Source of the DNA: Microbacterium amylolyticum
GTDB taxonomy: Bacteria > Actinomycetota > Actinomycetes > Actinomycetales > Microbacteriaceae
Direction: 5' to 3'
NCBI RefSeq assembly: GCF_011046975.1
Contig: NZ_CP049253.1
Span: forward strand, 496,001-560,000
Length of the DNA stretch: 64,000 bases
Both the position numbers and the translations under genes were made by a program. Positions within the stretch are counted from its first letter, which is position 1. The number at the start of each line of letters is the position of its first letter. Of the stretch, positions 19,238-22,843 are shown piece after piece. The notes beneath the pieces were generated by a model. The model had not been told where the DNA came from and made no database searches. It worked only from the letters and a program-made list of their open reading frames with translations.

Positions 19238-19277
19238 ACGGCGCTCCTCCTGCTCGCAGGAGGAGCGCCGTTGTTTT
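19238..19277 (+). terminator. Intrinsic terminator after the DUF7455 gene
   Basis: A 15-bp perfect stem (19238-19252 with 19257-19271) with a CTCG loop is followed on the plus strand by TTGTTTTT. The T tract runs into the stop codon of the convergent racemase gene. Confidence 0.88.
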
Positions 19278-20317
19278 TAGGGGACGTAGCGCCGCGGAAC
19301 AAGCGGCGAAACGCGTAGCAGCGGTTCCTCGCCGACGGTGCCGATTGCCTCCCCCACATCGGTCGGCGTCATTTCGCCGCGTGTTCCGGGTCCGAAAACG
19401 ATCACCACATCATCGACGTTCGCATCGCGCCATCCCTCGATGCGCGTCTCGAACGTTTCGACGCTGATGATTCCTCGTGGTCCGACAGGAGTGGAAACGT
19501 GTGATCGTCCCGCCAACGATGACGCCAGGCCATCCGCCGAGCCGATCGCGATTGTGACGTCGTCTGCCGATACGTGCGAGACGCGCGCAACGAGCGTCGC
19601 AATCGGAGCAATTTCGGAGATGTCCGGCCCGCCTTCGGACCGAATACCGAAACAAAAGGCGCCAATGCGGGTGAGGTCATATCGGAACTCGGGGCGATGC
19701 CACGCGGCAGCGCTGGCCGCGAGATGGCGCACCTCGGGCTCGAGCCCCACGCTCTTTGCCACATCGACAGCGCGGTCGAACTCGGCGCGGGACACGTCAT
19801 CCTCCGCGTCACTCGCTTCCGCGATGTGGCTCCAGATCCCCACAACGCGCAGACATCCCGCCCGCTCCAGCGCATATGCCCGTCGGCAGAAGTTGTCCCA
19901 GTGCTCGGGCCGCACACCGTTGCGGTGAAGGCCCGTGTCGATCTTCAGGTGAACCCTCGCGACGATGCCGGTGTCGTCAGCGACAGTCGCGACCCGCTCC
20001 AGATAGTCGACGTCGCCCACCCCCAGCTCCAGTCCGCCCTCCAGAGCCTCCGCTGCTTCCGGAGCCGAGACGGTCATCCAGGCGAGAACGCGGGCGTCCT
20101 CCCCCGCTGTGCGTCGTGCCCGCAGAGAGCTGGGAAGGTCCATCCCGCCGAACCAGCGCGCGCCTGCCTCGTAGGCGGCTTGGACAATCGGCTCGACGCC
20201 CTGCGCATATGCATCGTCTTTAATCACGACGAGGACCTCCGCCGGTGCCATGCGTTCACGCACCGCAGCGACGTTTGTGCGCAGCTGCGCGAGATCGATG
20301 ATCAGCTCAGCACTCAT
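19277..20317 (-). CDS. Alanine-racemase-like protein with intact PLP barrel but no C-terminal catalytic tyrosine
   Basis: A 346-residue fold-type III PLP protein. The barrel is complete: PLP lysine K33 in VVIKDDAYAQG (canonical VVKADAYGHG), K125 and R132 in HLKIDTGLHRNG, H164 in IWSHIAEAS, and the PLP-contacting arginine in YDLTRIGAFCFG. The C-terminal domain is degenerate: after VARVSHV it lacks the stretch of about 20 residues that carries SYG and the catalytic tyrosine, and the conserved MDQ motif is gone. Its ATG overlaps the stop of the upstream gene as ATGA, and that neighbour carries exactly the missing tyrosine domain. I infer a subunit of a heteromeric amino-acid racemase. A decarboxylase or regulatory role is possible. 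Confidence 0.8.
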   Translation of the reverse strand: MSAELIIDLAQLRTNVAAVRERMAPAEVLVVIKDDAYAQGVEPIVQAAYEAGARWFGGMDLPSSLRARRTAGEDARVLAWMTVSAPEAAEALEGGLELGVGDVDYLERVATVADDTGIVARVHLKIDTGLHRNGVRPEHWDNFCRRAYALERAGCLRVVGIWSHIAEASDAEDDVSRAEFDRAVDVAKSVGLEPEVRHLAASAAAWHRPEFRYDLTRIGAFCFGIRSEGGPDISEIAPIATLVARVSHVSADDVTIAIGSADGLASSLAGRSHVSTPVGPRGIISVETFETRIEGWRDANVDDVVIVFGPGTRGEMTPTDVGEAIGTVGEEPLLRVSPLVPRRYVP

Positions 20318-20976
20318 GCCACAACCTCCCTGCGGTTCATAGCGCCGATCGTCGCAACGATCTCAATCGGTGTCAGCGCACTCGCCCGAGCCCAGTCGTC
20401 CAGAAACCCCGGTACCGCCGGGCCGAAGTACGTCGCCTCATCGCCGGTCGCCACCGGGGTGTCCCCCGTATCCACCACGCAAACGTCCATCGCGATTCTG
20501 CCGACAATCGGCATTTCTCGGCCGGCCAAGCGCAACGACACCTGTCCACCAATTGCCCGGACAACTCCCTGGGCATACCCACCGGAGACAAGTGCCGCGT
20601 TCGTCTCATGGGATGCACGGAATCGATACCCGTAGGAGACACCATCCCCCGAGCGGAGGGGCTTGGTCTGCAACACCGGCGCAACGAAACTCATTACCTG
20701 TTCGCCGTGGCCGGCGAGACCGAACACGGCGTCAGGATCAACCTCGCCCGACGACACGATGTCCAGGCCACACGTCCTGGCACGATCGACGTCTTGCGAA
20801 TCGACACGAGCAGAGGAAAATCCTGCCGCAATCGCCGCAGCAGCAACCGTGTCAAAACCGTGTCCGCACGCGTCACGGCGCAGATCGATCGCCCCGTTCG
20901 AGTCAAGCGCGCGAAGGTTTCGCTCGAGTGCCCCACGCGACACGCGTGTGTATGGGGCGCTCGCGCCCAGAGTCAT
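20314..20976 (-). CDS. Alanine racemase C-terminal-domain protein with collapsed, lysine-less barrel
   Basis: A 220-residue protein. Residues 10-75 still align with the start of the alanine racemase barrel, but the PLP motif reads RRDACGHG, so the lysine is replaced by arginine (R33), and roughly 150 residues of barrel are absent. The C-terminal domain is intact: SGDGVSYGYRF supplies the catalytic tyrosine (Y115), and GYAQG and VGRIAMDVCVVD match the canonical GYADG and GRI.MDQ. Two start codons are possible (20985 and 20976); 20976 has GGGGGG at ribosome-site spacing. It is co-translated with the barrel gene by a 4-nt overlap and probably forms a heterodimer with it. Confidence 0.8.
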   Translation of the reverse strand: MTLGASAPYTRVSRGALERNLRALDSNGAIDLRRDACGHGFDTVAAAAIAAGFSSARVDSQDVDRARTCGLDIVSSGEVDPDAVFGLAGHGEQVMSFVAPVLQTKPLRSGDGVSYGYRFRASHETNAALVSGGYAQGVVRAIGGQVSLRLAGREMPIVGRIAMDVCVVDTGDTPVATGDEATYFGPAVPGFLDDWARASALTPIEIVATIGAMNRREVVA

Positions 20977-21069
20977 CGAAACCATCCCCCCTACACTATG
21001 ACGGGTCCCCGTGATCATGCCCAAGACCGGGCCGCGGGGCCAGACATCACCCGCCGACCCGGAGGATCC

Positions 21070-22095
21070 ATGCCCGCCAACGGCCTCGCCATCGGACCAA
21101 AGCTGCGCTATCTCGCGGAGCGCGCGCGCCGTATCGACATCGGATCGGTTATCGACCGCGCAAAAGAAGTCCGTGATCAGCACGGACAAGCTGTTCCCGC
21201 CACGGTGTGGGACATGCTGTGGTCAGCGGCAAAGCACGATGTCGCCTTCCAGGACTACGTCGACTTCGACTTCGCGATGCTGACGAAGGCGGAGCGGGAG
21301 ACCTTCATGACGCATCCCGTGTCGATGCAGCTCGCTCAGCAGTACTCACAGCCCGCCGGCCGGGCGATCTTCGAAGACAAGATCGCCTTTAACCGCCGCT
21401 TTTCCAACTACATTCAGCGCGAGTGGTTGGTGGTGAAAGAAGACAACGCCGACGAGGTGCGTTCCTTCGTCGAAAGCCAAGGAACGATCATCGCAAAGGT
21501 GCCGGTAAGCCATATGGGTCTGGGCGTGCGCCGGTACCACGCGAAGGACATCACCGACTGGAGTGCGTTTCACCGTCGTCTTCTCGACGGCGATGAGCGC
21601 CTGCTCGAGGAGATCATCGCCCAGCACGACGATCTCGCGGCGGTCTGCCCCGGAACCGTGAACACGACACGAATCGTCGGCTTCTACGACGGAACAGATG
21701 TCCATACGCTGGCGGTTTCGCAGAAGTTCGGTCGTGGCGAGGTCAGCGACCAGATGTCATACGGCGGCTTCTATACGATGCTCGACCCCGACACCGGTCA
21801 CTCGCTCAGCGCCGGGTACGACTCACACGGCCACGTGCATCACACGCACCCCGACAGTGGGTTCCGCATCGCAGACTTCCAGCTCCCTCACTTCGCCGAG
21901 GCGATCGCGCTGATCGACCGTGCGGCCCGCGAGGTACCCGAGGTTCAGTACGCCGGCTGGGACGTCGTGGTGACCGCGAACGGCGCTGATCTCGTCGAGG
22001 GCAACTGGGGCGCGGGGGTCTACGAAAATAAGCCCAGCGTCTCGGGCGTGCGCACAGGGCACAAGCCGCGATACCGCGCTGCCATCGGCTTCTGA
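21070..22095 (+). CDS. Sugar-transfer-associated ATP-grasp protein (TupA-like)
   Basis: A 341-residue ATP-grasp ligase-fold protein. The N-terminal helical part (about 1-110) is followed by the ATP-grasp core with WLVVKEDNADEVRSFV, IIAKVPVSHMGLGV, NTTRIVGFYDG, and the metal-binding GWDVVVTANG plus LVEGNWGAG (Glu-x-Asn). Such proteins couple ATP hydrolysis to forming an amide, often in cell-surface polymer synthesis; the substrate here is unknown. ATG 21070 has CGGAGGATCC just upstream. It is divergent from the split racemase pair with an 85-93 nt shared promoter region, suggesting joint control. Confidence 0.75.
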   Translation: MPANGLAIGPKLRYLAERARRIDIGSVIDRAKEVRDQHGQAVPATVWDMLWSAAKHDVAFQDYVDFDFAMLTKAERETFMTHPVSMQLAQQYSQPAGRAIFEDKIAFNRRFSNYIQREWLVVKEDNADEVRSFVESQGTIIAKVPVSHMGLGVRRYHAKDITDWSAFHRRLLDGDERLLEEIIAQHDDLAAVCPGTVNTTRIVGFYDGTDVHTLAVSQKFGRGEVSDQMSYGGFYTMLDPDTGHSLSAGYDSHGHVHHTHPDSGFRIADFQLPHFAEAIALIDRAAREVPEVQYAGWDVVVTANGADLVEGNWGAGVYENKPSVSGVRTGHKPRYRAAIGF

Positions 22096-22150: not shown

Positions 22151-22842
22151 TCAGTTCTTGCGAATGATGCCCATCGGCGTCGACTGGTGACCCTGACCCA
22201 GCGGATTATCGCTGAGGATCGTCACGAGCGTGCGCTCACCGGTCTTGTCGAGCGTCGAACCGAGAATGTTCCCGCCAATGTCGTTGATATCAACGACGGC
22301 AACATCACAGCCGACGAGCTTCTTCACATCGGCGGCAACCCCGTTCGGGCGCTCAGGACCCAGAACGACGGCGTTGTTATACGGCGGAATCGTGTTCGGC
22401 GTCGGGCCGTCGATCGCGCGCGCCTTGTCGCCGGCAATGCGGTAGAAATCCCCGCTACGGCCGAACACCTTCGTGACAGCAGAAACCGCCGCTGCGAAGA
22501 GGATGCGAACAGTGCCCACCTCGCGCAGCGCGAACTCCATCGTCTCGGGAATCCCGAGCCCGATTCCGTAGGCCGTTTTCGTGACGTACTTCGACAAGAA
22601 CCGGGCCAGGGGCCGCGGTTCGATCTCGTCCATCATGTAGGAGCGACCCTGCATGATCGCAACGATCTTTTCCGTCACGAAGAGAACGTCGCCGTCCTGA
22701 ACGGATGCCGCCGCGTACTCCGTGATGATGTCTTCCAGTTGGTCGCCAGGCATCACAACGCGCGTGCGCAGCGGAATCCGCTGGTACGACACACCATCAA
22801 CAACTACCTCGAGGGACTTCCCCTCGTTCGCTTCGGCCGGCA

Positions 22843-22843
<1 letters not shown>
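22151..22843 (-). CDS. CofE/FbiB-type coenzyme F420:glutamate ligase family protein
   Basis: A 230-residue protein of the F420-0:gamma-glutamyl ligase family (PF01996-like). Characteristic pieces are GDVLFVTEKIVAIMQGRS, the ARFLSKYV segment, GDKARAIDGPTPNTIPPYNN, and ADVKKLVGCDVAVVDINDIGGN with acidic metal ligands. Authentic CofE adds glutamate to F420-0 using GTP. No other F420 gene lies in the window, and this may be a paralogue acting on another acid. Its ATG overlaps the rpoD stop as TAATG, so it is translated from the sigma-factor message. Confidence 0.75.

Follow-up and report, generated by a model that had tools for sequence, protein, structure and literature searches.

Two overlapping genes of Microbacterium amylolyticum very probably code for the two halves of a PLP racemase, an obligate heterodimer that derives from the alanine racemase family and whose single active site is a composite of both chains. 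They lie in a window of 64,000 nucleotides, the whole stretch of DNA that was analysed (contig NZ_CP049253.1, positions 496,001 to 560,000). PMC3485190 and PMC3245724, in the parts available, describe solved alanine racemase homodimers in which one subunit supplies Lys39 and its partner Tyr265. On this reading the long subunit would give the barrel, the PLP lysine K33 and an acidic gate residue, E330, while the short subunit, a reduced paralog, would cap the mouth of that barrel with its C-domain and donate Y115 and the MD motif. The second, symmetry-related site, made of the short barrel and the long C-domain, would be dead. Complementary loss of residues, co-occurrence, selection and natural fusions can each be read from the sequences. 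Features are collected in Table 1.

Table 1. The long and short genes, their key codons and two neighbouring genes, in window positions
Feature	Position	Strand	Remarks
Long (K-donor) subunit	19277..20317	-	346 aa; complete PLP barrel; the loop with the catalytic tyrosine is missing from the C-domain
Short (Y-donor) subunit	20314..20976	-	220 aa; first beta-alpha barrel units as a remnant, plus intact C-domain
ATGA stop-start overlap of long and short genes	20314..20317	-	4 bases in common
Codon K33, PLP lysine (= Geobacillus Alr K39), long subunit	20219..20221	-	
Codon E330, long subunit, at the alanine-gate Tyr354 site	19328..19330	-	
Codon Y115, catalytic tyrosine (= Geobacillus Alr Y265), short subunit	20632..20634	-	
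Codon R33, short subunit, where the PLP lysine is lost	20878..20880	-	
ATP-grasp gene (ATPgrasp_ST, PF14397), divergent neighbour	20608..22095	+	Open-frame bounds, true start further in; putative functional link
F420-0:gamma-glutamyl-ligase-like gene (PF01996), neighbour	22151..22843	-	Putative functional link

An earlier note on this DNA had described two genes sharing an ATGA overlap, one keeping the lysine side of alanine racemase without SYG or MD, the other keeping Y115 and IAMD with an arginine in place of the lysine. Coordinates and bases, read again, agree with this throughout, and the codons and Pfam domains bear out the division of residues. The long protein (P0001) has K33, Y37, K125, R132, H164 and R217, and neither an SYG nor an MD motif. 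The short protein (P0002) has Y115 within VSYGY, Y134 and M163-D164, with R33 at the PLP-lysine site. Pfam matched the long protein to a full Ala_racemase_N (155.1 bits) and a weak Ala_racemase_C (29.3 bits), and the short protein to Ala_racemase_C alone (93.5 bits). An Ala_racemase_N barrel with the PLP lysine is thus found in the long protein and not in the short; an Ala_racemase_C domain with the catalytic tyrosine is found in the short, the long having the domain minus the tyrosine. Neither polypeptide carries both K and Y as a canonical alr does, and the inner-gate Tyr354 is E330 here. Both proteins fall under the 168-bit cut-off of the NCBIfam alr model (TIGR00492 equivalog), the long at 122.3 and the short at 76.3 bits. 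Judged by these features, the pair is placed outside the canonical alr equivalog, yet derived from that family, and it very likely works like the enzymes of the family. Annotation pipelines name such products plainly "alanine racemase" or "alanine racemase C-terminal domain-containing protein". A search for a separate alr, proposed in the same note, found one with both catalytic residues elsewhere in the window's genome (G000 C1:1093476-1094546).

The complementary loss extends far beyond the window. Residues are numbered as in Geobacillus Alr (K39, Y43, K129, R136, H166, R219, Y265, M312, D313, Y354), and the detailed comparison set held 44 pair loci, 43 fetched plus the window. K39, Y43, K129, R136, H166 and R219 were kept in 44/44 long proteins, none of which (0/44) had Tyr at the Y265 column. 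Tyr265 and Met312 were present in 43/43 short proteins, with Asp or Asn at position 313, and 42 of the 43 lacked lysine at the K39 column; the exception, L110, has a stretch without a recognisable barrel there. Database proteins repeat the pattern. Of the 120 proteins listed in one search, 91 were short and 29 were full-length comparators. Y265 and M312 were found in 91/91 short proteins, position 313 was D in 88 and N in 3, and the K39 site was never Lys (0/91), being R in 90/91 and S in 1/91. The 120 listed in a second search comprised 119 true long proteins (115 unfused and 4 in fusions) and P0231, a full-length protein with its tyrosine intact; P0231 and the 29 from the first search make up 30 full-length comparators. 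All six lysine-side residues were present in 149/149 long-class proteins, i.e., the 119 true long proteins and the 30 comparators. The tyrosine motif [VAIT]SY[GDN] was missing from 116/119 true long proteins; the other three (P0122, P0124 and P0212) are fusions, in which the motif sits in the short half.

The arginine of the short proteins (P0002 and 90/91 database proteins) lies in an otherwise well conserved DLRxDAxGHG, though the barrel is no longer catalytic. In one clade of five loci (L102, L106, L110, L111 and L118), no trace of the barrel can be recognised in the short protein, suggesting that there a C-domain by itself may suffice to donate the tyrosine. The absence of the remnant from this clade therefore leaves the strong conservation of R33 in the other clades without explanation.

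A family survey, also proposed in the earlier note, found the long-short pair, at a single chromosomal site, in at least 45 of 150 Microbacteriaceae genomes; a pattern recurring this widely is therefore not due to chance. No genome with a single partner was found among the matches listed for this draw. In G124 and G012 a contig end falls inside the second partner, whose remaining piece is legible; rare orphan partners may exist beyond the matches listed. All but one of the 44 pair loci lay near a sigA-like, gyrB/parE-like or gyrA/parC-like gene, the exception being on a 4.4-kb contig. With start codons picked by script, spacing in 43 measurable pairs was a 4-nt overlap in 30, a 1-nt overlap in 3, an 8–10-nt overlap in 4 and a gap of 5–52 nt in 6. 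Ratios of dN/dS in nine comparisons of related genomes were 0.15–0.42 for the short gene and 0.10–0.26 for the long, with dS up to 1.8.

A scan of genome contigs gave, among 80 loci listed, four pair loci (L158, L159, L160 and L162), one full-length tandem (L161), one alr in pieces in two frames (L232) and 74 lone alr-like frames. The pair is present in M. testaceum StLB037. L232, from Clavibacter sp. BS5, runs across two overlapping frames with the barrel apart from the C-domain, an arrangement that could be a frameshift, a sequencing error or another split. In a class-wide survey of 296 genomes, among the matches listed, the pair occupied 7 of 30 fetched loci, every one in the window's genus, and the remaining 23 each held one full-length frame. 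One genome of the window's genus, G410, had just one full-length alr among the matches listed.

Nature has also joined the two halves in one chain. Among the database proteins listed, 21 are such fusions. Six, of 601–684 aa, have a first barrel that is reduced; in ten, of 716–745 aa, the first half is near full size (the K39 motif has Ser in the 7/10 where it is recognisable). One more measures 807 aa, and the remaining four are partial. Y265 is in the first half in 20/20 fusions with the site covered and K39 in the second half in 21/21, while K39 is absent from 17/17 aligned first halves (S in 12, R in 4, G in 1). P0245, from Parafrigoribacterium mesophilum, is found on a contig of 2.1 Mb; many of the others are recorded without an isolate name and on short contigs, in which a frame error could pass for a fusion. 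The fusion alignment model was built from the 21 fusions and 47 short proteins. AlphaFold2 predicted a 601-aa fusion as a confident single unit (pLDDT 94.2, pTM 0.92); a structure search with this model compared it to single Alr chains, the rows listed covering essentially only the long half. From the genes we infer the complex itself and its racemase activity. The earlier note's proposal of an obligate heterodimer with a single active site thus gains support from complementary loss, co-occurrence, gene overlap, dN/dS, the fusions and, at the level of prediction, the fusion model.

Other readings of the two genes were weighed. Either one, annotated singly, resembles a defective enzyme, as would be expected of two pseudogenised alr copies retained by chance; we hold decay of this kind to be extremely improbable and reject it on dN/dS values well under 1 in all nine comparisons, on co-occurrence and on the retention of catalytic residues by 91 short proteins and 119 long ones from the database. 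The long protein might instead be an independent homodimeric PLP enzyme catalysing some other, tyrosine-free reaction, with the short protein as its regulator or folding partner. It does have the whole PLP-binding side, fold type III includes many enzymes other than racemases, and the residue profile leaves room for activity of the long subunit on its own. However, the short protein conserves the exact catalytic face of the C-domain (the Y265, M312 and D313 positions), which a regulator would not need, and the natural fusions hold to the same division of roles, so this reading is improbable, if less so than decay. A heterodimer could also be real and act on alanine or serine, as a second supply of D-Ala or D-Ser, a possibility that overlaps with our preferred explanation. 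The family is that of alanine racemase, and a Tyr354-type (Ala-type) split version occurs elsewhere (see below); against it stand the Glu or Asp that replaces the gate tyrosine in 119/119 long proteins and the canonical alr already in the window's genome. We regard an alanine or serine substrate as rather unlikely. Since the genome has a canonical alr as well, D-Ala is probably not the product of the preferred heterodimer.

The gate residue bears on the likely substrate. Tyr354, in helix 10 of the same subunit as Lys39, is reported in the available part of PMC3485190 to help confine canonical enzymes to alanine, and to be replaced in lysine and broad-specificity racemases. The site is Glu in 77/119 and Asp in 42/119 true long proteins and acidic in 43/43 fetched loci where covered; the 30 full-length comparators have Tyr in 27, Trp in 2 and Asp in 1 (P0231). 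An acidic gate would suit a substrate with a side-chain amine. This gate, together with murT/gatD or other ligase neighbours, is therefore the ground for proposing supply of D-Orn, D-Lys or D-Dab: the substrate would be one of the diamino acids Orn, Lys and 2,4-diaminobutyrate, with the D form destined for the cross-bridge of B-type peptidoglycan. The chances for and against this are about evenly poised, the proposal drawing on one gate residue, neighbouring genes and the published wall chemistry of genera rather than of the window's organism. Against a diamino substrate, Lys129 is retained, unlike in the known lysine racemases of PMC3485190, and at least some Microbacterium species are reported, in the available part of PMC10757982, to use L-Lys.

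Ligase genes, murT/gatD among them, often lie beside the pair. A murT and/or gatD gene lies beside 27/44 pair loci, and an F420-ligase-like gene beside 14/44, one of which has murT/gatD too. An ATP-grasp gene is beside 11/44, each time together with the F420-ligase-like gene. None of these neighbours was present at 4/44 loci, two of them at contig ends. According to the available part of PMC6085368, MurT/GatD adds the amide to the D-Glu residue of the wall precursor, and its operon is called universal in Actinobacteria. A profile search found no MurT_C match in the window's genome; at E 0.001, MurT_C matched in 102/150 family genomes, with many matches weak. The F420-ligase-like gene and its usual ATP-grasp companion may stand in for MurT/GatD, or they may serve to attach the bridge residue.

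Walls described in the available part of PMC7033078 contain D-Orn in Homoserinimonas, D-Lys in Frigoribacterium, Dab in Glaciihabitans and Lys in Parafrigoribacterium, with counter-cases in Lysinibacter (L-Lys) and Compostimonas (L-Dab). Microbacterium walls are reported to contain D-Orn, L-Lys or Dab, with D-Orn in 3/4 species of the M. testaceum clade (PMC10757982, in part), and a D-Ala-D-Dab peptide is reported from the Rhodoluna wall (PMC4156110, in part). Pair or fusion proteins are on record for Homoserinimonas aerilata, a Glaciihabitans, a Frigoribacterium and Parafrigoribacterium mesophilum. A D-diamino acid racemase serving the cross-bridge would fit this wall chemistry.

The ancestry of the pair was approached with trees of each domain. 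Redundant canonical sequences (L010, L012, L015, L023, L029, L030, L032 and L035) and L139, a duplicate of L295, were left out before tree building. In the barrel tree (114/123 rows, by a quick method with imperfect rooting, two short proteins with a barrel remnant forming very long branches), the 44 long proteins and full-length acidic-gate paralogs made one supported group (SH-aLRT 97). In other genera, those paralogs immediately follow a canonical alr. For the C-domain tree we also required Tyr at Y265 and at least 100 filled columns per row, which removed genus g50. In this tree, of 109 rows but just 130 columns and with many weak forks, short proteins stood apart from the acidic group (97) and joined the first genes of L147/L155-type tandems at 86; they therefore look descended from the first, canonical-type gene. 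The pair thus seems, from these trees, to descend from two paralogs, a Tyr354-type canonical alr and an acidic-gate paralog.

Among the full-length tandems, L147, L155, L156, L157 and L161 (Curtobacterium pusillum) have matched odd residues. In the four of these that were tabulated, one protein has Cys in place of Lys129 and its partner has Asn, Thr or Gly there. All five tandems have SYD instead of SYG in the acidic protein and MN instead of MD in the other. By its residues, such a tandem is possibly a two-site heterodimer.

A mirror image of the pair occurs in genus g78 (G077 and G140), where the alr locus is itself a split pair in the order long-short. Its long barrel is canonical (TINYE), and its short C-domain falls inside the acidic group (98) of the C-domain tree. 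In these two genomes, 99% complete, each Ala_racemase_C match is part of a split pair, and there is no intact alr. All Ala_racemase_C matches of genus g21 (G020 and G100) and of G136 of genus g74 lie within one fused long-short protein, while G073 of g74 has the fused protein, a sigA-locus pair and a divergent full-length protein. D-Ala could come from elsewhere, through D-amino acid transaminase or the other Ala_racemase_N proteins that were seen; with such routes possible, a missing intact alr is therefore no proof of function. In genus g50 (G049 and G119) a single frame holds the barrel, a dead C-domain and a live C-domain. These two frames, L296 and L297, continue after the live C-domain with a P-loop domain (motif GPLGAGKTT), which we take to resemble TsaE; the frame would be an alr-tsaE fusion or a read-through.

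We tentatively suggest, holding it to be somewhat short of probable, that an ancestral alr tandem of Tyr354 and acidic genes formed a two-site heterodimer, in which one site served alanine and the other a diamino acid, and was resolved as two mirror-image single-site pairs. At the sigA locus the acidic paralog would have kept the lysine, and at the g78 alr locus the canonical protein, its partner turning into the donor of the tyrosine in each case; one genus would run on two such single-site pairs without an ordinary alr, and others would have fused the halves into racemases of a single chain.

Compared with homodimeric Alr (PF01168 and PF00842; Lys39, Tyr265'), the pair has K and Y on separate gene products, one complete catalytic set instead of two, and an acid in place of Tyr354. 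The Lyr and Bar racemases, as far as PMC3485190 describes them in the available part, resemble the pair in replacing Tyr354 in helix 10, a region reported to set specificity. Unlike the pair, they are homodimers with both catalytic residues, have lost the Lys129 equivalent (kept here as K125), and have Thr or Ala at the gate rather than an acid. Full-length alr tandems of other genera (L144-L154; C. pusillum L161) share the pair's gene order, and their second gene has an acidic gate (TIGDE in L144-L146 and L148-L154) and groups with the long subunit, but both tandem genes keep Lys39 and Tyr265. Trypanosome AdoMetDC with its prozyme and deoxyhypusine synthase are active enzymes that require a catalytically dead paralog, in folds unrelated to Alr. 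We know of no such dead-paralog heteromer among fold-type III racemases, and among the papers listed by searches of open-access PMC text, none indicates a heterodimeric or split alanine racemase in its title or the opening of its abstract.

If the interpretation as a heterodimer is correct, a textbook shared-site homodimer would have become a single-site heterodimer more than once. Its intermediates would still be living, as the full-length tandem, the dead full-size barrel, the shrunken barrel, the lone C-domain and the fusion. They would form a natural series for the origin of a pseudoenzyme and for why subunits turn obligate. B-type peptidoglycan is a chemotaxonomic hallmark of the Microbacteriaceae, and the pair would also be a candidate source of its D-Orn, D-Lys or D-Dab.
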